From assembly GCA_025966435.1 (NCBI GenBank), contig JAICRQ010000021.1:1-17380 (forward strand): DNA of 17,380 bases. Direction: 5' to 3'. Of the stretch, positions 1,768-17,380 are shown in pieces. The stretch's first letter is position 1. Each line of letters opens with the position of its first letter. The position numbers and the translations under genes were made by a program. Below the pieces are notes generated by a model. The model had not been told where the DNA came from, searched no databases, and was given only the letters and a program-made list of their open reading frames with translations. This DNA comes from Anaerolineales bacterium (lineage in GTDB: Bacteria > Chloroflexota > Anaerolineae > Anaerolineales > Villigracilaceae).

Positions 1768-1773
1768 GTCGCT

Positions 1774-2397
1774 ATGAATACTCTCTATGGTCCTATCCTG
1801 ATCGTTGAAGATGTCCCCAACGTGCTCGAATTGCTTGAAGTCACATTACGTTTCAAAGGCTATGCGGTTCTCACTGCACGCAATGGTGAAGAAGCCCTTG
1901 AGGTCATCTCGCGCCAGAGACCGGTACTGATCATCACCGATATTCTGATGCCAAAACTGGATGGGTACGCATTTGTGCAGAAGCTGCGCCTCAACCCGGA
2001 AACACGTAGCATCCCGGTTGTGTTTCTTTCCGCAACATATGTAACGCCGGAAGACAAGGACTTTGCGTTGAGCCTGGGCGCGGCTCGGTTCATGGAGAAG
2101 CCGATCGATACGGAAGACTTTTTATTGACCGTTGCCGAACTGGTCACACAGCAGCCATTTACATCCCCGCATCCCATGGATATGGAACGGTTCTATATAG
2201 GCTATCGCACACGCCTGGAAGATAAACTACGGCATAAGAACACCCAGATCGCGCGCGCCGAGCGGTTGCTCTCTACTCTGCCACCGGATCAGCGACCTGC
2301 ATACGAGGCACTGCTCCAACAATCCGTGCGCGACCGCGATGAGATCCAAACGGAACTGTACGGCATTTACAAAACCCTCGAAGAATTGAAAAAATAA
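1774..2397 (+). CDS. Single-receiver response regulator with C-terminal helical extension
   Basis: This 207-residue protein begins with a complete CheY-like receiver domain (about 1-125): acidic pocket Glu12/Asp13, phospho-acceptor Asp56 in ITDILMP, Ser86, and Lys109 in EKPID. No DNA-binding or enzymatic output domain follows. The last 80 residues are charged and helical, rich in Arg, Glu and Gln, and probably form a coiled coil that mediates dimerisation or partner contact. The ATG at 1774 is preferred over the in-frame ATG at 1720 because a promoter lies immediately upstream and the 18 extra residues do not belong to the receiver fold. No partner kinase is adjacent. The output is unknown; signalling by protein-protein contact is an inference. 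Confidence 0.85.
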   Translation: MNTLYGPILIVEDVPNVLELLEVTLRFKGYAVLTARNGEEALEVISRQRPVLIITDILMPKLDGYAFVQKLRLNPETRSIPVVFLSATYVTPEDKDFALSLGAARFMEKPIDTEDFLLTVAELVTQQPFTSPHPMDMERFYIGYRTRLEDKLRHKNTQIARAERLLSTLPPDQRPAYEALLQQSVRDRDEIQTELYGIYKTLEELKK

Positions 2398-2447
2398 CAT
2401 CTTCGGTTCAGTGCTGTGAGCCTGGCTGAATGATAAAGGATGATTTT

Positions 2448-3224: not shown

Positions 3225-3333
3225 TCGGTGTGAGAGGTAAAAATCGGTCTACATTGTCGTCTAAAATATGACAAACGTCAGGTGAAATCTCCCGGTAAAG
3301 CGGTAGAATAAGACTATGATCATCTGATTTACA

Positions 3334-6300: not shown

Positions 6301-6543
6301 CTGGCTCATTTGTATTTAGATAGCAATCAAATCGAAAAATGTCTGCCCATCTGCCAGCTTGCTCTGGCTCAAGATCGCTACAATGAAATGATTTACCAGC
6401 TGGAAATGCGTGCGTACGCCGCCCTCGGCGATCGCGCCTCGATCGCTCGCCTGTACCAGGCATCTAAGGCGGCGTTGGAAGTAGATCTTGGGATCCCGCT
6501 TTCACAGGAAATGGAGGCGCTTTATCGGGAATTGACGGCTTAA
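3334..6543 (+). CDS. Large MalT-like STAND ATPase/TPR regulator with C-terminal SARP/BTAD domains
   Basis: The protein has 1069 residues. An N-terminal STAND-type NTPase (about 1-330) has Walker A SAPAGYGKT (45-53, Lys52) and Walker B LLIIDDFH (Asp139/Asp140), as in MalT/LuxR-family ATP-dependent activators. Residues about 370-800 are TPR-like helical pairs that would bind a ligand or partner. From about residue 830 a winged-helix OmpR/SARP-type DNA-binding domain is followed by a bacterial transcriptional activation domain (BTAD, about 930-1069), in place of the LuxR helix-turn-helix of MalT. The expected role is an ATP-driven, ligand-gated transcription activator. The ATG at 3334 has no clear Shine-Dalgarno; a TAGAAT box lies at 3304-3309 without a convincing -35. 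The target is unknown; the Gly-repeat peptide cassette downstream is a possible one by proximity only. Confidence 0.85.
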   Translation: MASSKPIPISKTKIIVPYRRNEILSRPRLLESMQSLLDNKLLLLSAPAGYGKTSLLIDLANHVNMPVCWLSLDLLDREPQRFLAYLIASLAEQFPRIGEASRPQLNRLKSIEEDAESLLITLTNEIYDQIVEDFLLIIDDFHLLDDFPVISALVNRFLELVVENCHVLLSSRTLPNLADVTLMVAREQVAGLSHAELAFNPREAQLLYVQNHRQHLSEEAAKELIEQTSGWITGMVLSNSPGMTRVSGVDAFAYLGRQVLDQQPEPMREFLIRTSLPEEFNSEFCDFVLSPLYPEPQNWFNFMSYIFEKNLFVLPLGDDGRWLRYHPLFRDFLQTRLKEERPGEVQPILERMVTAYEKAGEWEKAYFTCKQVGDSEALAGVIERSGTAMLQTALVTLEGWINSLPPAYIRNRPGLISLRGMMAAMKGNLEEAGELLDTAVSVYRKEHDAAGLTLALTRRAHTLRLLGKYSDSLRDVEEALWLAEAEADLQPLYAEALRIRGLNLFRLGQSRSAINDLEHSLSLYTELKESGSIPMLLGETAMVHAAVGNVDSATDMFQKALKIWRVEKNLYSQADTLNNLAVFYQWIGEYELASETYESGLICAVNSHNQRAESLILTGLGDLYSEVGEFEAAEQAYEQAEAIASGLPGFFISNYLILARANLTLLQDDSESTSKILKSFRKHLKTNPSSYERGLWALFAGRNHLLKQEPRKAISLLQESKDCFLEDGRESESLSCMVWLIGAYDQAGQKENARGEFRELLSIRNKPTHSLLITLHQALPWLKSLQDDPQVGRSLTGLIDKSNKLGEKILSVRRTLRRYAQSIQMPAASLTIRSFGRAEVSVNGRVISMSEWRTKSVRDLFFYFLFLQEAVTKEQIGVVLWPEITSIQALKARFKDDIYRLRRAVGKNAIVFDEVYYRFNRTLDYEYDVEAFESYINLARKSSDVAKRVECYQKAVDLVQGPYLSEVDAYWASEERERLGQMYISALEELAHLYLDSNQIEKCLPICQLALAQDRYNEMIYQLEMRAYAALGDRASIARLYQASKAALEVDLGIPLSQEMEALYRELTA

Positions 6544-6595
6544 ATGAACAAAAGAGATATGAATTAAAGCATCACATGTTTGATGCTGTTGACTA

Positions 6596-6634
6596 AAACT
6601 GCCCCGCCAGTGCTGGAACTTCGCAGGGCAGTTT
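6596..6634 (+). terminator. Branched hairpin downstream of the BTAD regulator
   Basis: Nine-base arms AAACTGCCC (6596-6604) and GGGCAGTTT (6626-6634) pair perfectly and enclose a smaller CCAG/CTGG stem (6607-6616). The right arm ends in TTT but no longer T tract follows. It lies 53 bases after the regulator stop and is probably its transcription terminator. A further hairpin, AGCATCA/TGATGCT, is at 6568-6587. Confidence 0.5.
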
Positions 6635-6871
6635 CTCTATCTCCTCAGAGAGGGGAAACAATTACATTTTCCAACTTTATCAATCCACTGGATTGAATCT
6701 CATTCTCGAAAATTTTGTATAGAATAGAGTTCAACGTCTCTACTCCTTAAGTATGTTTACACGTTTTGGTATTTGACGTAGAACGAGAGCATCCTGTGAA
6801 AATGATATAACAACCGGAAAAACGTTCTAGGGCGTAGCCTCTTGCTCCCACTTTTTAGTAAGCAGCCATAA

Positions 6872-6895
6872 TTTTGCATCCTGTTTTGCAGCCTG
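6872..6895. repeat. 12-bp tandem direct repeat upstream of peptide gene
   Basis: TTTTGCATCCTG is followed immediately by TTTTGCAGCCTG (11 of 12 bases identical). It ends 47 bases before the ATG of the Gly-repeat peptide. The position is suitable for an activator-binding site, for example a BTAD/SARP-type regulator, which commonly binds direct repeats of about 11 bases. That link is inference. Confidence 0.4.
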
Positions 6896-6942
6896 GGGGT
6901 GGGTAATATAGGGCAAATCAATCAAGAAAGAGGTAACACCCC

Positions 6943-7092
6943 ATGAACAATAGCTTCTGCCAACTCCCGACCAATATCGATGATCGTATGCCCGCCGATG
7001 GCGGGGGTGGTGGTCGTCGCCGGATGCCTGCTGATGGTGGGGGTGGCGGTCGTCGCCGGATGCCCGCAGATGGCGGGGGTGGTGGGCGGTAA
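6943..7092 (+). CDS. 49-residue Gly/Arg repeat peptide, candidate RiPP precursor or secreted peptide
   Basis: After a 15-residue head (MNNSFCQLPTNIDDR, with one Cys) the peptide carries a 12-residue unit, MPADGGGGGRRR, twice in full, then a third copy ending after the first Arg. GAGGT lies nine bases before the ATG. Between DNA copies every difference (Pro CCC/CCT, Ala GCC/GCT/GCA, Gly GGC/GGT/GGG, Arg CGT/CGG) is synonymous, strong evidence for translation and selection on the peptide. The stop is 21 bases before the next gene, which encodes a leader-like protein, so the two are probably cotranscribed. No known family is recognised. Repeated cores with Arg-Arg-Arg junctions suggest processing into small peptides, but a nucleic-acid-binding or membrane-active function is also possible. 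Confidence 0.75.
   Translation: MNNSFCQLPTNIDDRMPADGGGGGRRRMPADGGGGGRRRMPADGGGGGR
6988..7089 (+). repeat. 36-nt in-frame tandem repeat, 2.8 copies
   Basis: Copies are at 6988-7023, 7024-7059 and 7060-7089 (the last one lacks two codons before the stop). Each begins ATG-CCN-GCN-GAT and ends in Arg codons. The divergence is restricted to third codon positions, so the array is not a fresh slippage product. Confidence 0.9.
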
Positions 7093-7113
7093 CCTCTTTC
7101 TACGGAGATATCC

Positions 7114-7392
7114 ATGACTATGCTTTCTTTAGACGTTTATTCGGCTTCCTCCAGAGGTTTTCAAAAAGCTCCCGGTGCACGCAGTGCCTTGCATCGTCTC
7201 TTTGCGGCGGCGGTCGTCAGCGATCAGTTCCGCAAAATGCTGCTCCGGGCGCCGGAAGAAGCGCTGGCGAATGGTTACCTCGGCCAGACGTTTCCTCTGA
7301 CCGATCAGGAAAAGAGGATCATTAAGACCATTCGTGCCGAAACCCTGACTGATTTTGCCCAGAAAGTCAATCAGGCGCTGAAAACAACCTGA
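7114..7392 (+). CDS. Small protein resembling Os1348/Franean1_4349-type RiPP-precursor (NHLP-like) proteins
   Basis: The 92-residue protein has a core reading ALHRLFAAAVVSDQFRKMLL, then a PEEALANGY segment and FPLTDQEKRIIKTIRAETLTDFA. This pattern (helix, 'F...LL..PE.AL..GY', 'LT..E...I..I.A..L..FA') resembles the small proteins grouped with nitrile-hydratase-alpha-like leader or Os1348/Franean1_4349-type RiPP precursors, recalled as frequent in Chloroflexota and Actinobacteria. The ATG has GGAG six bases upstream. It lies 21 bases after the Gly-repeat peptide and 87 bases before the PAS-GAF-HD-GYP gene. There is no Gly-Gly cleavage site and no obvious core after the helical part, so it may be a regulatory or carrier protein rather than a precursor. 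No modification enzyme is adjacent. Confidence 0.65.
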   Translation: MTMLSLDVYSASSRGFQKAPGARSALHRLFAAAVVSDQFRKMLLRAPEEALANGYLGQTFPLTDQEKRIIKTIRAETLTDFAQKVNQALKTT

Positions 7393-7479
7393 AATTTCAA
7401 TCAAGCATCAGGCATATTTCATTCTATTGGGTCGCACTGATGTCACACTGGGTGACGCGGCGGAAATGGGGGCGCAGTG

Positions 7480-8997
7480 ATGAAGGGAGTCACGGTGCCC
7501 CGCGTCCGCCTAACAACGATGGAGAACTCATTGGTGAATTTATCGAGCATTGAACAGGCGCTTGAAGCGGTCCTTCAAACGTTTACCGACACAAATATTA
7601 TTCTGACCCCAGATGGGGAAATTTTAGATTTTAAATCGAATTCTTCCTTCTTTCGCAATATAGTTCCCAGCTCTATTTATAACAAGAGAATAACGGATAT
7701 TTTCCCTGCCCGTCTGGCGGAGCAATTCGGACAGGCAATGCGTACTGTGCAGCAAACAGGCAGTATCGTCCCTTTGGAGTATATGCTGCTTCTTTCAAAC
7801 CGCGAGTATTGGTTTGATGCCCGCCTAATTCCGATTTCTGATTCGAATATCATGCTGATCGCCCGCGACATCACGGACTGCAAGGAAACGAAGATCAAAA
7901 TGGAACGGCAGGTGCAGCAGCTTTCCATCCTGCGCTCGATTGATCTGGCGATCGCTTCCGGGTTGGATTTGAATCTGCTCCTCTCCATGCTGCTCGACCG
8001 GGTCATGGCACTTATGCACGTCGACGCGGCAACGGTGCTCTTGTTGAATTCCAAAACGAACCTGCTTGAGTTTGCGGCTGGAAAAGGGTTTCATTCCAAC
8101 ATCCTGCAATATACACGCCTGAAACTGGGCGAAGGGTGTGCGGGACGGGTCGCCCTTGGACGGGAAATGATTCACATCCCGGACCTCACCAAAGACCGCA
8201 TGGAATTTGACCGTTCTCCCTTGTTTGTGCAGGAGAACTTCGTCACCTATTGGGGCGTTCCTTTAATGGCAAAGGGTCGGGTGCTCGGCGTGCTCGAAAT
8301 GTTTCATCGCTCGTCTCTCAAGCCCGATAAGGATCTGCAAAATTTCTTTGTGATGGTGGCAGGGCAGGCAGCCATTGCCATCGACAGTGCCATGATGTTC
8401 AGCGAGCTTCAGCGATCGAACGTGGAATTGAGCCTGGCATACGATGCCACCATCGAAGGCCTATCCCGTGCTCTGGATCTGCGAGATAAGGAGACCAAGG
8501 AGCACACGTTCCGCGTGACGGATATCACAATAAAGCTGGCTGCCCGGCTAGGTGTAAAACAAGCCGATATGATCCACATTCGGCGCGGGGCGATTCTCCA
8601 TGATATTGGTAAAGTCGCGATTCCAGATCAGATCCTGTTCAAACCGGGACCTCTGGCACAGGATGAGTGGGCGATCATGCGCAGGCATCCCGACATTGCA
8701 GTGGAACTCCTTTCACCGGTAAGTTACTTGGAACCCGCGCTGGAAATCCCTCACTGGCATCATGAGAAATGGGATGGCTCAGGCTACCCGGACGGTTTGC
8801 GCCAGGAAGATATCCCGTTTGCTGCACGGCTGTTTGCTGTGGCAGATGTTTACGATGCGTTGACGTCCAATCGTCCCTATCGTGCCGCCTGGTCCAAATG
8901 GGAGGCGGTACAGTATATTGAAGAGCAGACGGGAACCCATTTCGATCCCAGGGTGGTTCCTGAATTTTTGGATTTAGTCAACACCAGTAATTTCTAA
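7480..8997 (+). CDS. PAS-GAF-HD-GYP signalling protein, probable c-di-GMP phosphodiesterase
   Basis: The 505-residue product has a PAS domain (about 20-140), a GAF domain (about 150-310) and a C-terminal HD-GYP domain (about 325-500). HD-GYP hallmarks are complete: the HDIGK segment (His374-Asp375), RRHPDIA, and HHEKWDGSGYPDG with the Gly-Tyr-Pro triplet from residue 435. Proteins with these residues hydrolyse cyclic di-GMP through a metal centre. There is no signal peptide or membrane segment, so it senses a cytoplasmic signal through PAS and GAF. A GTG at 7477 and the ATG at 7480 share a G-rich stretch upstream; an ATG at 7519 is an alternative start. It follows the peptide cassette and may be in its transcription unit. 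Confidence 0.88.
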   Translation: MKGVTVPRVRLTTMENSLVNLSSIEQALEAVLQTFTDTNIILTPDGEILDFKSNSSFFRNIVPSSIYNKRITDIFPARLAEQFGQAMRTVQQTGSIVPLEYMLLLSNREYWFDARLIPISDSNIMLIARDITDCKETKIKMERQVQQLSILRSIDLAIASGLDLNLLLSMLLDRVMALMHVDAATVLLLNSKTNLLEFAAGKGFHSNILQYTRLKLGEGCAGRVALGREMIHIPDLTKDRMEFDRSPLFVQENFVTYWGVPLMAKGRVLGVLEMFHRSSLKPDKDLQNFFVMVAGQAAIAIDSAMMFSELQRSNVELSLAYDATIEGLSRALDLRDKETKEHTFRVTDITIKLAARLGVKQADMIHIRRGAILHDIGKVAIPDQILFKPGPLAQDEWAIMRRHPDIAVELLSPVSYLEPALEIPHWHHEKWDGSGYPDGLRQEDIPFAARLFAVADVYDALTSNRPYRAAWSKWEAVQYIEEQTGTHFDPRVVPEFLDLVNTSNF

Positions 8998-9020
8998 CCA
9001 TTACCGTTGCTGGCTATCTC

Positions 9021-9049
9021 TTGACCTTCCCTCGATTCTGCATTAAAAT
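9021..9049 (+). promoter_or_regulatory. Promoter of tRNA-Arg
   Basis: TTGACC (9021-9026), a 17-base spacer and TAAAAT (9044-9049) make a near-consensus sigma70 promoter. The tRNA begins 15 bases after the -10 box. Confidence 0.75.
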
Positions 9050-9063
9050 GCCTGCCTGCAAAC

Positions 9064-9137
9064 GCCCTCGTAGCTCAGTGGATTAGAGCGCTTGCTTGCG
9101 GAGCAATAGGTCGCGTGTTCGAGTCGCGCCGAGGGCG
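9064..9137 (+). tRNA. tRNA-Arg (anticodon GCG)
   Basis: A full cloverleaf of 74 bases can be drawn: acceptor GCCCTCG with CGAGGGC, D stem GCTC/GAGC, anticodon loop TTGCGGA, and T stem GCGTG/CGCGC with loop TTCGAGT. The anticodon GCG reads CGC/CGU. A20, C35 and G36, the arginine identity bases, are present. The discriminator base is G and CCA is not encoded. Position 27-43 is a C-T mismatch, leaving four pairs in the anticodon stem. Most bacteria use an ACG (inosine) tRNA for this codon box, so GCG is unusual. Confidence 0.9.
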
Positions 9138-9148
9138 CCTCTTTCTTG

Positions 9149-9175
9149 GGAGCGGATCACCGCTCCTTTTTGTTT
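9149..9175 (+). terminator. Rho-independent terminator after tRNA-Arg
   Basis: A perfect seven-base-pair stem GGAGCGG/CCGCTCC with loop ATCA (9149-9166) is followed by TTTTTGTTT. It ends about 20 bases before the surE start, so surE needs its own promoter or read-through. Confidence 0.88.
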
Positions 9176-9196
9176 GGCTTAACTTTTGGAAAGTAT

Positions 9197-10006
9197 ATGT
9201 CAGGACCCAGACCACAAATTCTATTAACAAATGATGATGGGATTCTTTCCCCCGGGTTATGGGCGGCAGCGGCTTCGCTTTCGAAGCTGGGGTTTGTGAC
9301 GGTGACCGCGCCGCGTGAACAATCCTCCGGTGCAGGGCGCAGCTTACCCAACACCTCGGACGGGATCATTCAGGAGCAGCAAGTCCAGGTGAACGGTCAG
9401 GAGTGGACCGTATATTCAGTTGGAGGAACTCCCGCCCAAACCGTCCTGCATGGCGTGCTCGAAGTTATGAAGAGAAAGCCGGACTTAGTCGTTTCCGGGA
9501 TCAACTATGGTGAAAATGTTGCCACGGGCGTCACCATTTCAGGGACGGTGGGCGCGGCGCTGGAAGCGGCGTCTCTGGATATTCCAGCAATGGCGATTTC
9601 CCTAGAAGCTGCCGCGGAGTATCATCTCACCTATTCAGAGGAAGTCAGTTTTCTTGTGGCGGCTGTCTTTGCAGAGCGCATTGCACGCCTGCTACTGGAA
9701 AAGAAATTCCCACCCGATGTAGACCTTTTGAAAGTGGACGTGCCTTCCGACGCAACCGTGGATACACCCTGGCAATTAACTCGAGTTTCACGTCAACGAT
9801 ATTACGAGCCGCTGGCGCCCACGCGCGACTCGTGGGCCGAGCGCGCGATCGTAGGGTATCGCGACGCGGGACAGCTTGACCGTGAACCAGAAAATACGGA
9901 TGTCTATGTCCTGCGCAAAAAACGAATGGTTTCCGTCTCTCCGCTCAGCCTGGACCTGACCTCGCGCGTCGATTTTGTTGAGCTGGACCGGTTGATGAGG
10001 TCTTAA
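9197..10006 (+). CDS. surE: 5'/3'-nucleotidase SurE
   Basis: SurE is a metal-dependent phosphatase acting on nucleoside monophosphates, associated with stationary-phase survival. The 269-residue protein opens with the family signature ILLTNDDGI (Asp13/Asp14, metal ligands), then a REQSSGAGRS segment, and SGINYGENVATG with Asn103 followed by TISGTVGAALEA. The ATG at 9197 was chosen because GGAAAG precedes it and the SurE fold starts there; a longer frame from 9146 would run through the tRNA terminator. It faces the thioredoxin gene and shares a bidirectional terminator with it. Confidence 0.93.
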   Translation: MSGPRPQILLTNDDGILSPGLWAAAASLSKLGFVTVTAPREQSSGAGRSLPNTSDGIIQEQQVQVNGQEWTVYSVGGTPAQTVLHGVLEVMKRKPDLVVSGINYGENVATGVTISGTVGAALEAASLDIPAMAISLEAAAEYHLTYSEEVSFLVAAVFAERIARLLLEKKFPPDVDLLKVDVPSDATVDTPWQLTRVSRQRYYEPLAPTRDSWAERAIVGYRDAGQLDREPENTDVYVLRKKRMVSVSPLSLDLTSRVDFVELDRLMRS

Positions 10007-10007
10007 A

Positions 10008-10040
10008 CAAAAGACACCAAGATTTTCTTGGTGTCTTTTG
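10008..10040. terminator. Bidirectional terminator between surE and trx
   Basis: Fifteen-base perfectly complementary arms (10008-10022 and 10026-10040) surround a three-base loop. The outer bases are AAAA on the left and TTTT on the right, so each strand carries a stem followed by T residues. It lies between two convergent genes. Confidence 0.85.
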
Positions 10041-10053
10041 CAATCAAAACAAA

Positions 10054-10380
10054 TCAGTTGAAGTGGGGCGTAAATCTCGCAACCAGTTTTTCCTTGGGCA
10101 TAAAGCCGGTAATGCGTTCCTTGATCTCGCCGTCCTTAAAGAATAGCAGGGTGGGAATCCCCATCACACCAAACTGCATCACAAGATTGGGATTCGCATC
10201 CGCATCGATTTTCACAACTTTAACTTTCCCGTCCCACTCGCCAGCCAGCTGCTTGACGATGGGATCGAGCATCTTACAGGGCTGGCACCAGACCGCGCTG
10301 AAATCGACCAGCACGGGCTCCGACGAATCGAGGACTTCTGTTTTGAATGTATCTTCGGTCACATTTAACATTTCGGCCAT
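10054..10380 (-). CDS. trxA: Thioredoxin
   Basis: The 108-residue protein is a classical cytoplasmic thioredoxin that reduces protein disulfides. The active site is WCQPC (Cys32 and Cys35), with Gln where most thioredoxins have Gly, and the cis-proline is Pro76 in GIPTLLFF. The buried Asp26 is present in VDFSA. The ATG complementary to 10378-10380 has GGAGG five bases upstream, better than an in-frame start 12 codons earlier. It converges on surE; its promoter overlaps the region of the divergent tRNA-Lys promoter but is not clear. Confidence 0.94.
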   Translation of the reverse strand: MAEMLNVTEDTFKTEVLDSSEPVLVDFSAVWCQPCKMLDPIVKQLAGEWDGKVKVVKIDADANPNLVMQFGVMGIPTLLFFKDGEIKERITGFMPKEKLVARFTPHFN

Positions 10381-10426
10381 TCGAACCTCCACTGGAGTAG
10401 ATGTCGTTACCTGCAAACGTCTTACG

Positions 10427-10455
10427 TTGACGATGAATATTTCCCATGTTAGAAT
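10427..10455 (+). promoter_or_regulatory. Promoter of tRNA-Lys
   Basis: TTGACG (10427-10432), 17 bases, then TAGAAT (10450-10455) is a strong sigma70-type promoter. The tRNA begins 17 bases after the -10 box. Confidence 0.75.
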
Positions 10456-10472
10456 GCAGTCCGCTTTTAGAT

Positions 10473-10544
10473 GGGCGCGTAGCTCAACGGCAGAGCAGTG
10501 GCCTTTTAAGCCATTGGTTCAGAGTTCGAATCTCTGCGCGCTCA
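10473..10544 (+). tRNA. tRNA-Lys (anticodon UUU)
   Basis: A 72-base cloverleaf is clear: acceptor GGGCGCG/CGCGCTC with one G-T pair, D stem GCTC/GAGC, anticodon stem GTGGC/GCCAT with loop CTTTTAA (anticodon TTT), and T stem CAGAG/CTCTG with loop TTCGAAT. The discriminator is A and CCA is not encoded. Confidence 0.95.
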
Positions 10545-10605
10545 CAAGAAACACCTGAATTTGTTCAGAGCCTCCACAGGGGAGATGGCATCCAAATCTA
10601 TTTTC

Positions 10606-10630
10606 GAAGCACCCGTCAAGGGTGTTTTTG
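10606..10630 (+). terminator. Rho-independent terminator after tRNA-Lys
   Basis: GCACCC, loop GTCAA, GGGTGT and then TTTTGTTTT form a short GC-rich stem with a T tract, about 65 bases past the tRNA. Confidence 0.7.
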
Positions 10631-10692
10631 TTTTAAGCGGGAGTCCTTCCTGCAAGGGGTAAGCAGTATCACTGCCCTCAGGCCGCTATTAA

Positions 10693-10739
10693 GGTAATAG
10701 AGAGAATGTCGAAGTAAACTCGACATTCTCTCTATTACC
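10693..10739. repeat. 20-bp perfect inverted repeat between tRNA-Lys and the ComA-like gene
   Basis: Arms at 10693-10712 and 10720-10739 are perfectly complementary over 20 bases, with a seven-base loop. No T tract follows on either strand, so a normal terminator is unlikely. A CTATTA at 10686-10691 can pair with TAATAG at 10695-10700, competing with the copy at 10732-10737, so two exclusive folds are possible. The rest of the 376-base gap (10545-10920) has the tRNA terminator, a GTCTA/TAGAC hairpin near 10831-10846, and no convincing gene or clear promoter. Confidence 0.8.
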
Positions 10740-10920
10740 AAGCGTTCCCCCTTTGCATCCCCATTCCAAAAGACTGAAAATCTGTCATGATTGTAAGGTG
10801 TACCCTACCCTACCTCAAGAAGACGTCCGTCTATTCCCCTAGACAGTTGTACTGTTGCTTCAGGGCTTGAATTGAGGAGTGATTTTTGTTAGGCTTAACG
10901 TATTAGAGATTGGAAGAAGA

Positions 10921-11595
10921 ATGAAAAATAAAATCCAAGTGATTATTATGGATGACCACCAGAGCATCGTGGATGGTTATCAGTTCCGGTTGAGCCAGGT
11001 TCCTGAGATTGAAGTCGTAAAGACGCTGGAATACGGGGAGGACCTCGAACCAACCCTGAAGAAACACCCTGTGGATGTTTTAATTTTGGATGTAGAAGTA
11101 CCTGCCTCACGGGAAAACCAGAATTCGTATCCTATTCTCCACACGATTCCAAAGCTGCTTAAGATGTATCCTCACTTAGCAATCCTGGTCATTAGTATGC
11201 ACAATGAACCGGGCTTGATCCGGGCAATCGTCGAGGCGGGGGCAGTAGGCTATATTCTGAAAAACGACAGCAGTAAGATCCAGGAACTAGGAAAGTGGAT
11301 TCTCTCTATCGTGAATGGCGATCCTTGTTTCAGCGATAAAATCTTAAGGGTGTTTCCAGGAAGAATCAACGAACCATTCACGGCTCGCCAGCTCGAGGCA
11401 CTTTCCCTGTGTGCCGCCTATCCAAACAGTAAAACCGCTGAGTTGGCAGCCAAAATGAAAATCGCCAATTCGACGCTGCGCAACCTCCTTTCCGCCGTTT
11501 ACTTAAAACTGGGTGTGCAAACCCGGGCGGCAGCGATTGCCAAAGCGAAACAAATGGGAATCATCACTCCTGATTCGGCGCTGATGTCGCCGTAG
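10921..11595 (+). CDS. ComA-like NarL/LuxR-family response regulator
   Basis: This 224-residue two-domain regulator has an N-terminal receiver (about 5-125) with Asp11/Asp12 in MDDHQS, phospho-acceptor Asp57 in LILDVEVP, a Ser in VISMH and Lys in YILKND. A LuxR-type helix-turn-helix (about 155-215) follows, beginning FTARQLEALSL and ending YLKLGVQTRAAAI. B. subtilis ComA has the same layout at 214 residues. The ATG at 10921 has GGAAG just upstream; a GTG at 10879 is the alternative. The 3' end overlaps the convergent ComQ-like gene by 32 bases. Given the nearby HisKA_3 kinase, the family known to pair with NarL-type regulators, it is the probable phosphorylation target. It likely activates genes of the locus; orthology to ComA is inferred from context. 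Confidence 0.85.
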   Translation: MKNKIQVIIMDDHQSIVDGYQFRLSQVPEIEVVKTLEYGEDLEPTLKKHPVDVLILDVEVPASRENQNSYPILHTIPKLLKMYPHLAILVISMHNEPGLIRAIVEAGAVGYILKNDSSKIQELGKWILSIVNGDPCFSDKILRVFPGRINEPFTARQLEALSLCAAYPNSKTAELAAKMKIANSTLRNLLSAVYLKLGVQTRAAAIAKAKQMGIITPDSALMSP

Positions 11596-12535
11596 GCAGA
11601 CCAGGAGGCGAGAGCCCCAGGCTTTCAAAGAGTTTCCACACCGGCGCGATCACGCCCTCGATCAGAGAGTCCACAATCTCTTGATTGGCAAGAGTGGTTT
11701 TGTTCAAGATTTCCCGGGCGATTTGATGTCTGCGTATTAATTGATCCACACAGTAACTAACAGCCCCGCAGCGGATCAAAATCTCCTGTGCCTCCTGTAG
11801 CGCGTTCCCAACACAAATATCTTCATACAGTTCCATGAATCGCGCCCGGGCAGGGTGTTCCACCGTTAGCGCAAAAAGAACGGGTAACGGCTTTCGTTTC
11901 TGCAGCCAATCGGGGTTGGCGGGCACGGCCATTGTGTCGTTCAAGTCGTCGTGGAGTTGGATCATCTCGCCATATAACCGACCGAGTTGTTCCAGGTTTT
12001 GAGTAACCTCTTCTCCTGCTTCCGCGAGTAGTGCCCCCATGTGGATCGCGCACCCGTAAAAGGGCGCGCTTTTGTTTTCCACCACGCGCCAGTAGGATGT
12101 TTCGTCTATCGGGTTCTGAACGTCCAGTTCCTGACCGTGCGCTGTCGTGAGCATCATGCGGTTCAGGCTGTCCAATGCTTCCTGCCGGGTCGAAGAACTG
12201 GAGCCGCTTGTGATGAGCGCGTCCATGCCCGCCGACTGGAAGGCGATAGCAAGATTGGAAGCTCTCCCATGCCCAATGTACCGATATTCTCCGCGCGGGT
12301 CGTCATCCAACATGTCATCTACCAGGATAATGCTGATCTGCGCGCAGGCGAGCGCGGCCGAGGCAGGGACCGCCTTTTCTGCGGGTTTCCCAACAGCATA
12401 GCAAGCAAGAACTGGTAACTGCCAGTCGCGCGGCTGCAAGGTCGCTGCGCGTTGAAGGATCGTCTTCATCTCCGCCCATGTGTCAAAGATGGGCAAGGTC
12501 AAGAGATAATCAGTCGTTCGTTGATATATATCCAT
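11564..12535 (-). CDS. Isoprenyl diphosphate synthase-fold protein, ComQ-like pheromone prenyltransferase
   Basis: The 323-residue protein belongs to the polyprenyl synthetase family. The first Asp-rich motif is VDDMLDDD (Asp73, Asp74, Asp77), the second is QLHDDLND (Asp196, Asp197, Asp200), and GQELD (134-138) and ENKSAPFY (about 153-160) lie between them as in the family. These Asp groups bind Mg and allylic diphosphate. Its position directly after a Trp-containing mini-gene and between a NarL-type regulator and a ComP-like kinase suggests a ComQ-type role: transfer of an isoprenyl group to tryptophan of the peptide. The ATG has AGGAG eight bases upstream. A housekeeping polyprenyl or geranylgeranyl synthase is the alternative; no isoprenoid pathway gene is adjacent. 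The C-terminal 20 residues are Pro/Ser-rich, partly encoded in the overlap with the regulator gene. Confidence 0.85.
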   Translation of the reverse strand: MDIYQRTTDYLLTLPIFDTWAEMKTILQRAATLQPRDWQLPVLACYAVGKPAEKAVPASAALACAQISIILVDDMLDDDPRGEYRYIGHGRASNLAIAFQSAGMDALITSGSSSSTRQEALDSLNRMMLTTAHGQELDVQNPIDETSYWRVVENKSAPFYGCAIHMGALLAEAGEEVTQNLEQLGRLYGEMIQLHDDLNDTMAVPANPDWLQKRKPLPVLFALTVEHPARARFMELYEDICVGNALQEAQEILIRCGAVSYCVDQLIRRHQIAREILNKTTLANQEIVDSLIEGVIAPVWKLFESLGLSPPGLPTATSAPNQE

Positions 12536-12552
12536 ATTTCTTTCTCCTAAGA

Positions 12553-12578
12553 GACGGGCCGGAGCTTTCCGACCCGTC
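12553..12578 (-). terminator. Strong hairpin between the ComX-like and ComQ-like genes
   Basis: An 11-base-pair stem with one G-T wobble and a four-base loop (AAGC on the - strand) lies in the 70-base gap after the peptide stop. The following sequence has only a few T residues before the ComQ-like ribosome-binding site, so it may be a partial terminator or an mRNA-stability element that makes peptide message more abundant than enzyme message. Confidence 0.65.
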
Positions 12579-12605
12579 CGAGTGTACTGCTATGTGTTCC
12601 TTCCT

Positions 12606-12773
12606 TTAGCTTTTCTTATTCTGTTCGGCCCAGTCCTGCCAACTGAGGTCACTTTCCAATGCCTGCATCTGTGTGCGGCTGGTTCTTGTAAGCAGATGCA
12701 TTGTCTTAAAGTATGCATCTGTTCCCTTGGACTTGGGACTAAGAAGCTTATAGAAAGTTTGCATGTTAAGCAT
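12606..12773 (-). CDS. ComX-like pheromone precursor peptide, 55 residues
   Basis: The 55-codon gene reads MLNMQTFYKLL at the start and ends ALESDLSWQDWAEQNKKS. AAGGAG sits seven bases before the ATG, a good ribosome-binding site. Trp45 and Trp48 lie near the C-terminus, where ComX peptides carry the tryptophan that ComQ prenylates; B. subtilis pre-ComX is also 55 residues. The peptide has no signal sequence and no transmembrane segment, as in ComX. It lies directly upstream of the isoprenyl synthase gene on the same strand and divergent from the ComP-like kinase. Differences from Bacillus: gene order is X-Q rather than Q-X, and eight or more residues follow the Trp. An in-frame TTG six codons earlier overlaps the ribosome-binding site and is unlikely. 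Family membership is inferred from size, Trp position and context. Confidence 0.75.
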   Translation of the reverse strand: MLNMQTFYKLLSPKSKGTDAYFKTMHLLTRTSRTQMQALESDLSWQDWAEQNKKS

Positions 12774-12815
12774 GTTTGTTCTCCTTATCAATTTGAAAAT
12801 TTGAATACAACTGTC

Positions 12816-12844
12816 TTGTGAAATGAGTTTGTGAACTGTATAAT
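12816..12844 (+). promoter_or_regulatory. Predicted promoter of the ComP-like kinase gene
   Basis: TTGTGA (12816-12821), 17 bases and consensus TATAAT (12839-12844) point toward the kinase gene; transcription would start near 12851, giving a leader of about 100 bases. On the opposite strand TTGGAA and TAGATT (about 12849-12876, spacing 16) are a weaker candidate for the peptide-synthase unit, so the two promoters would overlap. Confidence 0.6.
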
Positions 12845-12918
12845 CTAATCACCTCCTTTCTCATTCCAACTGAAAATCGAGTCGTTGCTCTATTTTCTTC
12901 ATTGCCTTGAGTTCACAA
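12816..12918. promoter_or_regulatory. Candidate regulator sites (TTGTGAA) in the divergent control region
   Basis: TTGTGAA occurs at 12816-12822 and 12829-12835, 13 bases apart on the same face, and in inverted form as GTTCACAA at 12911-12918. TTGTGAAC (12829-12836) and GTTCACAA form an eight-base inverted pair. The first copy coincides with the -35 box of the kinase promoter. The ComA-like regulator is the obvious candidate ligand; this is inference. Confidence 0.4.
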
Positions 12919-12948
12919 CCATCGTTTGTTAGCTACAAGCAGAACATA

Positions 12949-15237
12949 ATGAATACAAACAGTTCATCAACTCGTCGTTTTACTGATTATGTCTTGCCTT
13001 CTTTTGTCCTTGGAGTTCTTTTAATTTATACATATGCCAAATTCTTTGAGCATCCTTACACCGGGTTCCGTCTTGACTCAGCTGGTAAAGTTTTCCTTAT
13101 TTTTGTGGAGCAGGAGACAGAACCTATACTGCAAGTCGGGGATCAAGTAATCGAGATCGACTCTGTTAGGTGGGAAGATTACAGTGAAGATTTACGCTTG
13201 AAAATTTTCGAGAACGCAACGCCCGGCAAGATCATTGATCTTCTGGTGGAACGGGAGAATCAAACTATCTTAATCCCCTGGATAGTTGCCGGCCCCAACC
13301 TCGGTGAAATCCGCGATTTGCTAATTAGCGAGGGCTGGTTGGGATTTTTCTTTTGGATAGCAGGAACCTTTGCCTTGCTCACCCTGCGCCCAAGGGATAC
13401 ACGTTGGCGGCTTTTCATTGCTTTTAACTACTTGACAGCAACGTTTTTAGTCATTGGAAGTGGCGTTTCGTTCTACCATATTTGGGAGAGTGCCATCCTG
13501 ATGAGAGTCCTTGTTTGGTTTTGTATCCCAGTCTACTTGCATTTGCACTGGCTTTTCCCTAAACCCTTGAGTCGTCTTCCAAAAACTATCCTTTGGCTGG
13601 GTTATTTAGGTATTGGTCTTCTTGCGATTGCCCAGTGGTTCGATGCGCTTCCTAATGATCTTTTTTTTCTTGGATACTTTCTGGCTGTATTAGGAAATGT
13701 CATCCTTCTTATTTTCCACGCTGTGAAACAACCTGAAACAAGACGTGATCTAGGTGTGTTGCTATTGATCCTAGTGATTGCTTTTCTCCCTTCTGTTGTG
13801 ATAGGCATCGTTGGGGGATTTGTGACCGAGGAATTAGCACCGTGGCAGCCCTGGGTTGGTGGTAGCGCGCTATTGAGTCTTCCTCTTTTCCCTGTGGCGT
13901 ATGTCTATGCAGTTCATCGTCGTCGCTTGGGGAACTTGGAATTGCGCGTTAACAATCTGCTTTCATCCTTTACGTTCATAACGTTGATTGGGACAATAGC
14001 GCTTGCTTCCATGATAATACTGGCAGGGCAATTTTCGCTAGCTGGGGCAAGTGTTATTTTTAGTGGCATTGGATTTCTTACTGCTTCTATCCTTGTCTTT
14101 TTAGGGTTTGCTCCTTTTCAAGCTTTCTTTGAACGTCGTATCCTTGGTGTTCCATTGCCGTCAAAACGCCTGCTGGAGTCCTTTTCCACTCACATCACTA
14201 CAAGCCTTTCCCAGAGCGATTTGATCCGTGTTCTGCAGGAGGAGGTTTTCCCCAGTCTCTTAATTCGTCAGTTTGCTTTTCTCCATTATGACCAGGGCTC
14301 GCTAAACGTCCTTTCCACAATGGGATTGCATCAGGAGCCTCTGCCTGGTCAACAGGATGTATCGTACTTAATGGAGCAATCCGGGAAATATCGCTCCCCA
14401 GACCTCACGACAGGAGATCCATCGTTTGCCTGGGTGCGCCTCATCCTGCCTCTCAGGCTGGGTAACCAGTTACATGGATTCTGGCTGCTCGGCCGCCGCG
14501 ACCCCGATGACTTCTATTCCCATCAAGAGATTCTGACTCTGACTTCTCTTGCCAACCTGACGGCGATTGCCTTGAGCAACATCCTCCAAACGGAACGCCT
14601 CACGTCTATGTATCAGGCAAACATCAACCGTTATGAAGAGGAACGTGTGAGTCTGGCGCGTGACCTGCACGATAGCATCTTGAATGAGCTGGCGGCATTG
14701 CCCATCCGCAGTGACGCGCCTGTTTTTTCTCCCTCCTTCCAGGATGCGTACGACAGAATCTCTGACCATCTTCGTGAAATCACCCATCACTTACGACCCT
14801 CGATGCTGTCCTTCGGGTTAAAGCTGGCACTGGAGTCGTATGCAGACAACCTGAGGCAAAGGAACCTGGACTCTGTGGAGATCCTTACAAATATCCAGGC
14901 AGATAGCGAGTGCCGGTATCCGCTCATGATCGAGAGCAACATCTACCGAATTGTGCAGGAAGCCTGCGAGAATTCGCTGCGCTATGCGCAGGCGAAAACA
15001 TTATCCATTTCTGGGAACTTGGCTGAAAATCAAATCGAACTCCAGGTTGCCGATGATGGGGTGGGACTCGATCCGAATACCAGTCTTAACTTCAATGACC
15101 TGCTGACTCACAGACATTTTGGCCTGGCAGGGATGCACGAGCGGGCAAGCGTGATCGGCGCGGAGCTGCACATCGTTTCCAAACCCAATGAAGGGACACA
15201 GATACATCTAACATGGCAGTCGAAAGAGAATATTTAG
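12949..15237 (+). CDS. ComP-like PDZ-containing membrane sensor histidine kinase (HisKA_3)
   Basis: The 762-residue kinase has TM1 (about 11-30), a PDZ-like domain (about 33-115, with VFLIFVEQETEP and LQVGDQVIEID) outside the membrane, then nine more hydrophobic segments between 130 and 395. A GAF-like region (about 415-555) and a linker helix follow. The dimerisation/phospho-acceptor box is SLARDLHDSILNELA with His574, the HisKA_3 type. The ATP-binding domain has an N box with Asn675 (IVQEACENSLRYAQA), DDGVGL and FGLAGMHERA. B. subtilis ComP (about 769 residues) has the same order: TM, PDZ-like loop, many TMs, HisKA_3, ATPase. The ATG at 12949 has no strong ribosome-binding site; a TTG at 12907 is the alternative. 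It would sense the modified peptide and phosphorylate the NarL-type regulator. The 5' half is visibly more A/T-rich than the 3' half. Confidence 0.85.
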   Translation: MNTNSSSTRRFTDYVLPSFVLGVLLIYTYAKFFEHPYTGFRLDSAGKVFLIFVEQETEPILQVGDQVIEIDSVRWEDYSEDLRLKIFENATPGKIIDLLVERENQTILIPWIVAGPNLGEIRDLLISEGWLGFFFWIAGTFALLTLRPRDTRWRLFIAFNYLTATFLVIGSGVSFYHIWESAILMRVLVWFCIPVYLHLHWLFPKPLSRLPKTILWLGYLGIGLLAIAQWFDALPNDLFFLGYFLAVLGNVILLIFHAVKQPETRRDLGVLLLILVIAFLPSVVIGIVGGFVTEELAPWQPWVGGSALLSLPLFPVAYVYAVHRRRLGNLELRVNNLLSSFTFITLIGTIALASMIILAGQFSLAGASVIFSGIGFLTASILVFLGFAPFQAFFERRILGVPLPSKRLLESFSTHITTSLSQSDLIRVLQEEVFPSLLIRQFAFLHYDQGSLNVLSTMGLHQEPLPGQQDVSYLMEQSGKYRSPDLTTGDPSFAWVRLILPLRLGNQLHGFWLLGRRDPDDFYSHQEILTLTSLANLTAIALSNILQTERLTSMYQANINRYEEERVSLARDLHDSILNELAALPIRSDAPVFSPSFQDAYDRISDHLREITHHLRPSMLSFGLKLALESYADNLRQRNLDSVEILTNIQADSECRYPLMIESNIYRIVQEACENSLRYAQAKTLSISGNLAENQIELQVADDGVGLDPNTSLNFNDLLTHRHFGLAGMHERASVIGAELHIVSKPNEGTQIHLTWQSKENI

Positions 15238-15336
15238 TTGTTAAGGTTCAGTCATGCCAGCGGGCTTCTTGATAGCCGTATGCACGTTGATAGCTGCGTT
15301 ATACAGGTGGATACAAGTCAAATCCATAGCTTTTTG

Positions 15337-15363
15337 CTTGAATTTCTCAAGTAATACTTGAAT
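15337..15363. promoter_or_regulatory. CTTGA half-site cluster upstream of the HTH-membrane gene
   Basis: CTTGAAT occurs at 15337-15343 and again at 15357-15363, with an inverted TCAAG at 15347-15351. The cluster ends 16 bases before the GTG start of an XRE-type protein and could be its own operator. The remaining sequence of the 142-base gap shows no clear promoter or terminator. Confidence 0.3.
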
Positions 15364-15379
15364 CCGGGAAATTGCCTTC

Positions 15380-16519
15380 GTGAATACCTTTGGTGAAACC
15401 CTTCGCAGATTACGGCGGATAAGTCGCGATCCTGAGAACCCCGGGCAGCCTCTTTCGCAGGCTCATCTGGGTGAGTTGATCGGTCATACAATGAGCGATC
15501 GAGGGGTTACTGGTGCGGCAATCAGTGAGTGGGAACGCGGGAAGAGCAGAATCAAAGCAGAGGATCGTGATGTGCTACTGGCGCTTGTTAATGTTCTCTA
15601 CAAATGCGGTGGAATCAAGACATACCTTGATGCCAATGAGCTGCTGGAGGCGGGAAATTACCGGGCACTGAACGTCAGAGAAACGCAGGCAGTCTTTGGA
15701 TCTGTTGCTGTTGAATTAAAGGCAGAATCCCCCCATCATGATCCAGAGAAGCCTAAACCCCTTGTTTCACTTTTAATACAGCGGCTTTTATCCATATCAG
15801 ATCCTGAATTCCAAAACTTAATGGACAAAGCCGAAAAAGGTCCGCCTCCTACCTGGCCGCGAGTCCTTGCTGCGTTCATGAGAAAAACCTCAGAGAGGGT
15901 CTCTTTCACCCCAAAGATTGTGCTCTGGATGGGCATCTGGGGGATGGCCTGGTGGTTGATCACTCCGTCCATGCGATGGCCGTTCGAAAACCGAGTTGTT
16001 GCTCTAGAAGCAATCGGAATGTATGTTGTTGGGAGTCTTGTTGTTCCCCTCTTGATTGGAACGCTCGTTGATACAAAGCATAATGAATATTGGCAAGCGC
16101 AAGAGCTGGCAGATTCCAGACTTCTGCGTCTGTACACATATCAAGGCGCTGGAATTGGCTTTAATCTTGGCTACTTCTTTGTCCTTCCCCTGGTTCTTAT
16201 CTGGCATTATCTAAATCTGGGACCGTCCGTCTGGCTTGAAATCATTGCTGTTACCCTGGGGCTGGTTCTGGGGAATATGTCTGCGCGGGTGGTCCCACAT
16301 AACCTTTGGCTGGCGTATCGTCGTTTGCATCTCACAGATGGCGCCATATTTTTTGTTGTAGCATTCATTGGACCCTTGTGGGGAATCTTTTTTCTGGAGT
16401 ATTACTCAGTTCTTTTGACACCGTTTTGGGGAGGCATAGTTATTTTGGCAGCGCTCCTGCTGTTTATCATCATCCCAATCGGACAATCGAAGAAAAAGAC
16501 GGATACAGAACAAGCATAA
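15380..16519 (+). CDS. XRE-type HTH domain fused to a six-segment membrane domain
   Basis: The 379-residue protein begins with a Cro/CI-type helix-turn-helix (about 5-75), including LSQAHLGELIGH and GAAISEWERGKSRI. After a charged linker (about 95-170) six hydrophobic stretches follow (about 175-192, 205-230, 255-277, 282-303, 320-341, 345-367), ending in a lysine-rich cytoplasmic tail. It is probably a membrane-anchored transcription regulator sensing an unknown signal. Translation starts with GTG at 15380; the Shine-Dalgarno is weak. It lies 142 bases after the ComP-like gene on the same strand with no terminator between, so it may be cotranscribed with it and take part in the peptide response, for instance in immunity or signal sensing. 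No enzyme motif was recognised in the membrane part. Confidence 0.7.
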   Translation: MNTFGETLRRLRRISRDPENPGQPLSQAHLGELIGHTMSDRGVTGAAISEWERGKSRIKAEDRDVLLALVNVLYKCGGIKTYLDANELLEAGNYRALNVRETQAVFGSVAVELKAESPHHDPEKPKPLVSLLIQRLLSISDPEFQNLMDKAEKGPPPTWPRVLAAFMRKTSERVSFTPKIVLWMGIWGMAWWLITPSMRWPFENRVVALEAIGMYVVGSLVVPLLIGTLVDTKHNEYWQAQELADSRLLRLYTYQGAGIGFNLGYFFVLPLVLIWHYLNLGPSVWLEIIAVTLGLVLGNMSARVVPHNLWLAYRRLHLTDGAIFFVVAFIGPLWGIFFLEYYSVLLTPFWGGIVILAALLLFIIIPIGQSKKKTDTEQA

Positions 16520-16583
16520 CCTTAAATAAAACAACCGCGTTCAATATTTTAAGCCAAGCGCCAGCTTTGCGTAGGAACAGGCG

Positions 16584-16592
16584 TGCTATAAT
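16584..16592 (+). promoter_or_regulatory. Extended -10 promoter of dnaE
   Basis: TGC followed by consensus TATAAT (16587-16592) is an extended -10 element; no good -35 lies at 17 bases. Transcription would start near 16599, leaving a leader of about 77 bases before the dnaE ATG. Confidence 0.55.
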
Positions 16593-16675
16593 CGCGGTCG
16601 GTTCAATTGTCACATTGTTTGGTTGTTGTATCGTCCAACTCCCAGGCTGACACACTCCCCGAATCCGAATCCAAT

Positions 16676-17380
16676 ATGTCCTTTGCCCACCTCCACGTCC
16701 ACACGGAATACTCCATGCTCGATGGCTTCTCGAACATTAAGAAGCTGGTGAGGCGTGTGCAGGAGTTGAACATGCCGGCCGTGGCGATTACCGACCACGG
16801 CACGATGTTTGGGGTGATCGATTTTTACAAAGCGGCGAAGGATGCCGGGGTCAAGCCAATCATCGGAGTGGAAGCGTACATGGCAGCCCGCGGCATGGCG
16901 GACCGCGATCCCAAGCTGGATCGTTCTTCTTTCCACCTGCTTTTACTTGCTGAGAATGAAACAGGCTACAAGAACCTGCTCAAAATCTCCTCCGCGGCGC
17001 AGCTTGATGGTTTTTACTACTACCCTCGCATCGATCATGACTTTTTAGCGGCACATTCGGAAGGAATCATCTGCACCTCCGGGTGTATGTCCGCCGAAAT
17101 CCCGCGTGCGCTGCTGAACGATAATCCTGAAGAAGCGGTCAGGCGCATGAACTGGTATTACGATGTTTTCGGTCCCGACCGCTTTTTTGTCGAGTTGCAG
17201 CAGCATAACATCAAAGAAATCACGGATTTGAACCGTAAATTGATGGAGATGGGGGCACGTTACTCCGCGAAATATATCGCGACGAATGATGTCCACTACA
17301 TCAACCAGAGCGACTCGCGCTTGCAGGACATCCTGCTCGCCATTCAGACCAACACACTGCTCAGCGACCCGGACCGTATG
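16676..17380 (+). CDS. dnaE: DNA polymerase III alpha subunit, 3'-truncated by window edge
   Basis: The frame is open from the ATG at 16676 to the window end (235 codons), covering the N-terminal PHP domain and the start of the next region. PHP motifs are intact: HLHVHTEYSMLDG (His7, His9), ITDHGTM (Asp40, His41), and TNDVHY. The segments IIGVEAY and HLLLLAENETGYKNLLKI are typical of bacterial DnaE. DnaE is the catalytic subunit of the replicative polymerase; an intact PHP domain often means built-in metal-dependent proofreading or structural function. No Shine-Dalgarno is obvious before the ATG. Because PolC has a different N-terminus, DnaE is favoured. Confidence 0.93.
   Translation, partial: MSFAHLHVHTEYSMLDGFSNIKKLVRRVQELNMPAVAITDHGTMFGVIDFYKAAKDAGVKPIIGVEAYMAARGMADRDPKLDRSSFHLLLLAENETGYKNLLKISSAAQLDGFYYYPRIDHDFLAAHSEGIICTSGCMSAEIPRALLNDNPEEAVRRMNWYYDVFGPDRFFVELQQHNIKEITDLNRKLMEMGARYSAKYIATNDVHYINQSDSRLQDILLAIQTNTLLSDPDRM

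Follow-up and report, generated by a model that had tools for sequence, protein, structure and literature searches.

Loci of the comQXPA type were found in Firmicutes by a 2014 census, with 'none outside the phylum' (PMC4008528). In Bacillus, ComX and the N-terminus of ComP are variable, as is ComQ (PMC4008528), and ComP has been modelled with ten helices, the first loop being PDZ-like (PMC9620489). The discussion of a KEGG-based survey mentions the kinase-regulator pair in chloroflexi, the enzyme and the peptide being unnamed in that discussion (PMC8895600); among the top-listed papers of the open-licence PMC literature we found no report of this system in Chloroflexota or other phyla. Here we describe a four-gene locus on a 17,380-nucleotide stretch of DNA (contig JAICRQ010000021.1, positions 1 to 17,380; referred to as the window) of an Anaerolineales bacterium, which encodes a response regulator, an enzyme of the isoprenyl-synthase fold, a small peptide and a sensor histidine kinase. 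We consider it probable that the locus serves cell-to-cell signalling, the peptide being prenylated on Trp by the enzyme and perceived by the ComP-like kinase.

The locus and its relatives

The host genome is incomplete (3.84 Mb in 635 contigs) and belongs to the class Anaerolineae of the Chloroflexota, the phylum proposed for it in an original prediction made from the letters of the window. The four neighbouring genes were named there with the same roles, and all of them are present:

10921..11595, + strand: NarL/LuxR-type response regulator (ComA-like role), with a Response_reg and a weak GerE domain
11564..12535, − strand: trans-isoprenyl-synthase-like enzyme (PF00348), proposed peptide Trp prenyltransferase
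12606..12773, − strand: 55-residue precursor peptide ending in SWQDWAEQNKKS, matched by the family hidden Markov model, proposed pheromone precursor
12949..15237 (alternative start 12907), + strand: ComP-like sensor histidine kinase with a transmembrane (TM) segment, PDZ-like loop, about nine further TM segments, GAF-like, HisKA_3 and HATPase domains, assigned by Pfam, profile comparison and model

The regulator has the receiver and GerE/LuxR DNA-binding build of ComA (Response_reg 45 bits, over the cut-off; GerE 22.1 bits, just below the cut-off of 23.5), and an in-frame GTG at 10879 is a possible alternative to its start at 10921. Its 3′ end overlaps that of the enzyme gene by 32 bases. The ATG of the enzyme is preceded by the Shine-Dalgarno sequence AGGAG, eight bases upstream.

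A total of 106 loci were read, and removal of duplicates and of enzyme matches below 250 bits left 72 nonredundant enzymes, 68 of them with 600 bases upstream. In layout A (29 loci) the kinase is divergent from peptide and enzyme, and every locus has a regulator convergent with the enzyme (29/29). In layout B (33 loci) enzyme and kinase share one strand, the kinase coming second, and the peptide lies upstream where seen (X-Q-P). Ten of the 72 loci fit neither. The comparisons below used 28 enzymes, 40 kinases, 28 sensors and 41 peptides; kinases cut by contig ends were mostly omitted from the kinase set.

Comparison with described systems

Like Bacillus ComQXPA, the locus combines an enzyme fold without GKxxRP, a precursor of 50–60 residues with a Trp near the C-terminus, a TM-PDZ-nine-TM sensor homologous by profile, and a NarL-type regulator (PMC4008528, PMC9620489). 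It differs in gene order and strands, which are A+ Q− X− P+ in the window, as the original prediction had pointed out, or X-Q-P, instead of the one-strand Q-X-P-A. Further differences are a precursor that is not recognisably ComX and in which W-x-x-W is frequent, kinase cores of other kinds in layout B, and the occurrence in phyla other than Firmicutes. The enzyme falls in another clade than ComQ and has an intact second Asp-rich motif (SARM), which ComQ is reported to have lost (PMC10853753).

PalP-PalX-PalQ of Paenibacillus likewise comprises an adjacent histidine kinase, a Trp-ended precursor and an isoprenoid-synthase-fold prenyltransferase (PMC10853753). PalQ, compared by its description only, also has a Gln three residues before the SARM Asp and keeps both Asp-rich motifs (PMC10853753). 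PalX carries an NHLP leader and a strictly C-terminal Trp (PMC10853753), whereas the leader here is short and 0–19 residues follow the last Trp (7 in the window peptide). The Trp/indole prenyltransferases ChrPC and Ord1, which resemble trans-isoprenyl diphosphate synthases, have the same fold and Gln-SARM arrangement (PMC13290415); Ord1 takes free tryptophan as its substrate, and a signalling kinase is not described in the available part of that source (PMC13290415). Ord1 (PDB 9v4g) was among both the structure and the sequence matches of the window enzyme.

A conserved putative precursor peptide

The peptide gene starts at an ATG with AAGGAG seven bases upstream, a TTG at 12791 being a mechanical start only. 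Because of this Shine-Dalgarno sequence the product was taken to be 55 residues long, MLNMQTFYKLL...SDLSWQDWAEQNKKS, with Trp at residues 45 and 48. Its length and its seven-residue tail lie within the range of ComX-type precursors (52–73 residues, Trp 5–10 residues from the C-terminus), in agreement with the predicted 55-residue peptide with Trp near its end.

With one peptide as query, seven others were recovered among 466 small open reading frames (ORFs) of twelve loci, and an iterated profile applied to 6047 small ORFs gave 31 peptides and two matches judged false. The final search covered 15,422 small ORFs from the 106 loci. A profile match was found directly upstream of the enzyme, on the same strand, in 65 of the 68 nonredundant loci, window included, and in 35 of the 37 such loci fetched only after profile building. 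As to the other three, the peptide of L132 was recognised by eye (the 66th), L128 has only 648 bases upstream, and no peptide was seen in L078. Over all 72 loci there were 69 matches at E < 0.05. Of these, 66 lie upstream of the enzyme; the remaining three are second peptides on its downstream side, in L135, L140 and L146, which are labelled Acidobacteriota. Synonymous exceeded nonsynonymous differences in 26/26 close peptide pairs, indicating purifying selection. Judged by this upstream conservation and selection, the ORF is a real gene, and a chance ORF was rejected.

All 67 peptides (L132 included) have a Trp within the C-terminal 20 residues, and W-x-x-W is present in 56 of them, among these all 29 of layout A. 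Cys prenylation was rejected as a general rule, since a Cys within the last 35 residues occurs in 2/67 only. Phe7 and Trp45 are the only invariant positions in the alignment of 41 peptides and Trp48 is nearly so, which makes Trp45 the likeliest prenyl acceptor.

No relationship to ComX was detected. PF05952 was absent from the families matched at E ≤ 1 by the 41 peptides, in scans whose filters remove most matches above 0.1. The same family was matched at 2e-5 to 3e-20 by three plasmid-borne ComX from Bacillaceae, and profile comparison of peptide and ComX gave 0.1%. Among leader families a single Nif11 match (1/41, E 0.07) was obtained and no NHLP leader was seen in the 41 peptides, the family scans giving otherwise single weak, unrelated matches.

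The synthase-fold enzyme

The enzyme of 323 residues matches PF00348 with 66 bits and has both predicted Asp-rich motifs, DDMLD at residues 73–77 (first Asp-rich motif, FARM) and DDLND at 196–200 (SARM). The DDxxD donor motif is invariant in 28 aligned family members, and so is a Gln that precedes the SARM Asp by three residues. As the separate housekeeping-type prenyl synthase encoded by the host genome (27% identity to the locus enzyme) has the same Gln spacing (FQVQDD), this Gln is not discriminating. The AlphaFold model (predicted local distance difference test score, pLDDT, 94.9) has the common prenyl-synthase fold.

In two trees the enzyme family formed a single clade (100/100 and 100/99), apart from 18 housekeeping-type and 13 ComQ rows; the former are lower-scoring PF00348 homologues of the host genome and its relatives whose function is assumed, the latter are relatives of B. 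subtilis ComQ taken from a database, together with two plasmid genes beside annotated comX. GKxxRP and RRG are the isopentenyl-diphosphate binding motifs of chain-elongating enzymes. GKxxRP is present in 18/18 housekeeping-type rows, in 0/24 rows of the family and in 0/13 ComQ, and a Trp stands in place of its Pro in all 24 family rows. RRG after the first Asp motif is likewise found in 18/18 housekeeping-type rows and in neither the family nor ComQ. The fold, the DDxxD motifs, GQxxD and one Lys are shared with the housekeeping geranylgeranyl and polyprenyl synthases, the last two being kept in ComQ as well. Profile comparison of the family with ComQ gave a probability of 98.5%.

ComQ-type enzymes have an InterPro family of their own, with FARM present and SARM reported lost; the enzyme described here, with its own clade and intact SARM, does not belong to this type. 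It scored 88.2 bits against NF041169 (Family 2 encapsulin cargo prenyltransferase), for which the curated cut-off is 450. Identity with the housekeeping-type synthase of the genome was rejected because of the separate copy, the own clade and the loss of GKxxRP, and an anti-phage system because neither enzyme nor peptide had a PADLOC match. An enzyme on an Acaryochloris plasmid had a long branch in the tree and no annotated kinase adjoining.

The sensor of the kinase

The kinase starts at TTG 12907 or ATG 12949, relatives starting near 12949. HATPase_c scored over its cut-off, HisKA_3 below it (20.7 bits, cut-off 24), and a GAF match was weak. The ten-TM, PDZ-containing sensor of the original prediction is in line with the AlphaFold model of the sensor region (pLDDT 89), in which one membrane helix and a small beta domain are followed by about nine membrane-length helices. 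The domain scans and hydropathy followed it less closely: Pfam detected no PDZ domain in the window kinase, and crude hydropathy gave seven helices in its sensor. The build of ComP, with about ten TM helices, a PDZ-like first loop, HisKA_3 and HATPase, is found here, the PDZ assignment resting on the model and on PDZ_2 matches in 3 of 40 relatives scanned.

Compared by profile with ComP sensors, the sensor gave 97.9% over 322 columns (layout A) and 98.7% over 372 columns (layout B). The 14 sensors of the ComP set, including the two distant members P0170 and P0171, scored up to 78 over about 300 columns (alignments of 276–366 columns), whereas the best score of 56 polytopic membrane proteins used as decoys was 27–29, and none of the six decoys listed for each profile aligned over more than 100 columns. 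Above the best decoy were 13/14 ComP-set sensors with profile A, where P0171 fell below and P0153 barely exceeded it, and 14/14 with profile B. In the reverse test 33 of 40 family sensors passed, the window's own narrowly (33.8 vs 28.5). By these comparisons the sensor of the kinase is detectably homologous to that of ComP.

The output parts vary. Among the 40 kinases scanned, HATPase was found in 38, HisKA_3 in 17, HisKA in 14, a receiver in three and HD in two. A HisKA_3-like LHD box is present in 17/29 layout-A and 0/33 layout-B kinases, HELRTP in 0/29 and 16/33, respectively, and the others match neither. The sensors of both layouts match each other with E 1e-84. Two kinase classes with one common sensor suggest that the sensor is the part tied to the peptide.

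A Foldseek structure search with the sensor returned nothing at E ≤ 0.001; the PDZ-bearing DegS, Deg9 and RseP appeared at E of about 0.3–0.6 with high Foldseek probability, among unrelated rows. The membrane part is no more like seven-helix proteins than helical bundles in general are.

Co-occurrence and spread of the genes

Among the 50 loci flanked by 3.5 kb on either side, 46 have the sensor. In a sample of 61 relatives it was detected (E < 1e-100) in 11 of 12 genomes with the enzyme (E < 1e-34) vs 5 of 49 others (Fisher p 1e-7, kinship uncorrected). Mean identities were 38% for the peptide and 43% for the sensor vs 55% for the enzyme, 52% for the kinase core and 58% for the regulator, over 90 pairs selected for enzyme identity of at least 48%. 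These pairs, like the 26 of the selection test, share members and are not independent. That peptide and sensor diverge most resembles the variability of ComX and the ComP N-terminus in Bacillus, where ComQ is also variable (PMC4008528).

Three loci (L198, L199 and L203, in genomes G021, G049 and G039) have a same-strand regulator-kinase pair with a ComP-like sensor and no adjoining peptide or enzyme; G039 carries a full locus elsewhere. They may be listeners, relics, or sensors of something else. L198 lies a few kb before a PHP-domain gene, as does the locus in the window, and we take this gene to be dnaE-like. These arrangements are most simply explained by a cassette of peptide and enzyme that either entered, reversed, between regulator and kinase or was lost from there.

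Four close loci (L156, L157, L154, L158) have peptides ending in WGWYWDW or WGWNWDW. Their fetched flanks contain no ComP-like kinase, and in its place a receiver-like protein is convergent with the enzyme. More distant enzyme-sensor kinase operons occur in G059 and G046 (L204, L206, L207, L044), with the regulator last in L204 and L206 (Q-P-A). No convincing peptide was found in them, short upstream Trp-ended ORFs being not clearly conserved.

When one genome of each GTDB species was scanned with the pattern DD[MI]LDx[DE]PxG, 67 loci were obtained, some from one genome and all titled as metagenome assemblies; by title 60 are from Chloroflexota, six from Acidobacteriota and one from a 'bacterium'. 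As a single short pattern was used, absence elsewhere cannot be concluded. In the trees the Acidobacteriota-labelled L119 enzyme was placed among Chloroflexota, and those of L135, L140 and L146 formed their own clade. Enzyme matches at E ≤ 1e-15 were present in 53/396 evenly drawn genomes of the class, a figure that includes distant paralogues.

Intergenic region and neighbouring genes

Three further features were assigned:

12774..12948, no strand: divergent intergenic region between peptide and kinase, with the peptide Shine-Dalgarno AAGGAG and a recurring promoter / CACCTCCTT block
12816..12844, + strand: sigma-70-like kinase promoter TTGTGA-17-TATAAT, 10/12 consensus matches
15380..16519, + strand: XRE-type helix-turn-helix (HTH) protein with C-terminal hydrophobic segments (weak HTH_31, below cut-off), a frequent fifth gene

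Five sigma-70-like sites were counted in 10700–13000, with 1.9 expected. The TATAAT box of the kinase is followed directly by CACCTCCTT in the window (12839–12861) and in matching layout-A spacers. The strand of the peptide reads AGAAAGGAGGTGAT here, which resembles a very strong Shine-Dalgarno sequence; it lies about 80 bases ahead of the peptide start, and the peptide has its own in addition. The motif [AG]CCTCCTT lies around the kinase start in 18/29 layout-A loci; in at least one of them, L071, the match seems to be due to chance or to coding sequence. A shared palindrome was not found in the peptide-kinase spacers (best dyad in 2/28, the same as in shuffles).

Of the 27 layout-A loci that extend 4.3 kb or more on the kinase side, 13 have a homologue of the XRE-type protein next to the kinase. 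Farther off in the window, at 3334–6540, lies the gene of a probable transcriptional regulator, a large protein in which MalT-like TPR repeats are combined with a BTAD domain. In the two related loci L110 (10604–16927) and L071 (12010–18615), an ORF of more than 2100 residues with a ketosynthase motif (polyketide-synthase-like) adjoins the regulator. This is reminiscent of ComA, which controls surfactin synthesis.

Proposed mechanism and alternatives

From the conserved gene set we infer the following course of events. A 55-residue peptide would be made with the N-terminal recognition segment MLNMQTFYKLL and its conserved Phe. The first Asp-rich motif of the enzyme would bind a prenyl diphosphate. 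In place of isopentenyl diphosphate the enzyme would then accept the C-terminal part of the peptide and prenylate Trp45 (or Trp48) of the W-x-x-W core. Proteases and exporters would release a short lipidated fragment, which would bind the membrane sensor of the ComP-like kinase, and the kinase would phosphorylate the response regulator and so change transcription. The response would presumably depend on cell density, and the regulator would act on target genes.

Peptide conservation, the clade and motif loss of the enzyme, and a homologous sensor on different kinase cores argue on sequence grounds that the locus is ComQXPA-like in mechanism, partly by descent. The same comparisons place it outside ComQXPA in the strict sense, and it was not filed as a member because peptide, enzyme and gene order differ from ComX, ComQ and the Bacillus arrangement. 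The original prediction had called the locus the 'exact part list' of ComA, ComQ, ComX and ComP, which is too strong given the lack of detectable ComX homology, the retained SARM, the separate enzyme clade and some related kinases that stand without peptide or enzyme. Its choice between deep relative and convergent assembly can be sharpened: the sensor is homologous to that of ComP, and the peptides may be unrelated. What it had named beforehand as fatal did not come about, for the peptide frame is conserved in relatives, the synthase stays apart from housekeeping-type enzymes, and most related loci have the kinase together with the peptide. Its central idea of a prenyl-Trp pheromone sensed by the kinase, partly supported overall, is still the best reading.

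Some observations weigh against this reading. A response regulator lies within the fetched flanks of only 2/33 layout-B loci. Four of the 50 well-flanked loci (L090, L110, L156, L158) have enzyme and peptide and no ComP-like sensor nearby, strong sensor matches occur in 5/49 enzyme-less relatives (two at contig ends), and 7/40 family sensors failed to beat the best decoy in the reverse test. Among the recurring neighbours, which were not annotated singly, we noticed no dedicated exporter or protease. Fold and profile of the enzyme also match ordinary prenyl synthases, to which ComQ is related as well, and 19/24 family rows retain an Arg-Gly remnant, with the Arg one column before the RRG place, in DPRG. 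Tree 1 placed ComQ nearer to the housekeeping-type enzymes than to the family; in tree 2, from which six long or odd rows were omitted, ComQ united with the family at only 80/54. Both trees carry long-branch warnings, and they disagree on whether the family and ComQ are sisters.

The alternative that survives best, although we regard it as unlikely, is that the prenylated peptide is mainly a membrane-active or antimicrobial product, i.e. a ribosomally synthesised and post-translationally modified peptide (RiPP), and that the kinase senses the peptide or its damage for control of production or immunity. A RiPP-like precursor with its modifying enzyme, cores that are hydrophobic and rich in Trp (WGWYWDW, for example), the absence of the ComP-like kinase from some loci, and the presentation of PalX/PalQ as a RiPP and not a pheromone in the available text (PMC10853753) are all in line with it. 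However, no recurrent exporter or immunity gene was noticed, a ComP-homologous receptor accompanies nearly all well-flanked loci, and the most diverged parts are peptide and sensor, as in pherotypes.

Still less probable, in our view, is that the kinase senses a small isoprenoid produced by the enzyme, either a short-chain diphosphate or a terpenoid, with the peptide as a small regulator or chaperone of the enzyme. In the protein database 976 of 7996 scored candidates matched the enzyme at E ≤ 1e-5, and the named ones among the best 120 listed are polyprenyl, octaprenyl or geranylgeranyl diphosphate synthases. These names, the PF00348 fold with both Asp-rich motifs and the remnant Arg-Gly in most members would suit such an activity. 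Against it stand the universal presence of GKxxRP in the housekeeping-type rows and its universal absence from the family, the separate housekeeping-type enzyme of the genome, and peptide C-termini that conserve little except Trp, as expected for a modified core. An ordinary two-component system beside an unrelated isoprenoid enzyme with a spurious small ORF between them can be dismissed, for although small ORFs arise by chance and the sensor also occurs without enzyme and peptide, the peptide ORF is refuted as spurious by its conservation, position and selection, and the gene pairing is conserved across Chloroflexota and Acidobacteriota-labelled genomes.

Implications

If prenyl-Trp signalling is accepted as the function of the locus, lipid-tagged peptide signalling is suggested to be older and wider than thought, and the receptor would be older than the Bacillus pheromone. 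On balance we lean, by a small degree, towards a broader view in which such signalling is old, modular and extends beyond Firmicutes to Chloroflexota and Acidobacteriota: one TM-PDZ sensor family, to which ComP also belongs, would have been joined to varied kinase or other outputs, and a cassette of peptide and prenyltransferase would have been inserted beside it in different orientations, with peptides unrelated to ComX, and receptor-only genomes would be listeners or relics. Acidobacteriota have a Gram-negative envelope, which the lipidated peptide would then have to cross. The dozens of Chloroflexota loci and the few Acidobacteriota-labelled ones would represent a proposed language of largely uncultured groups. 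The family provides tens of natural enzyme-peptide pairs for the chemistry of Trp prenylation and a testable case of co-divergence between receptor and peptide.

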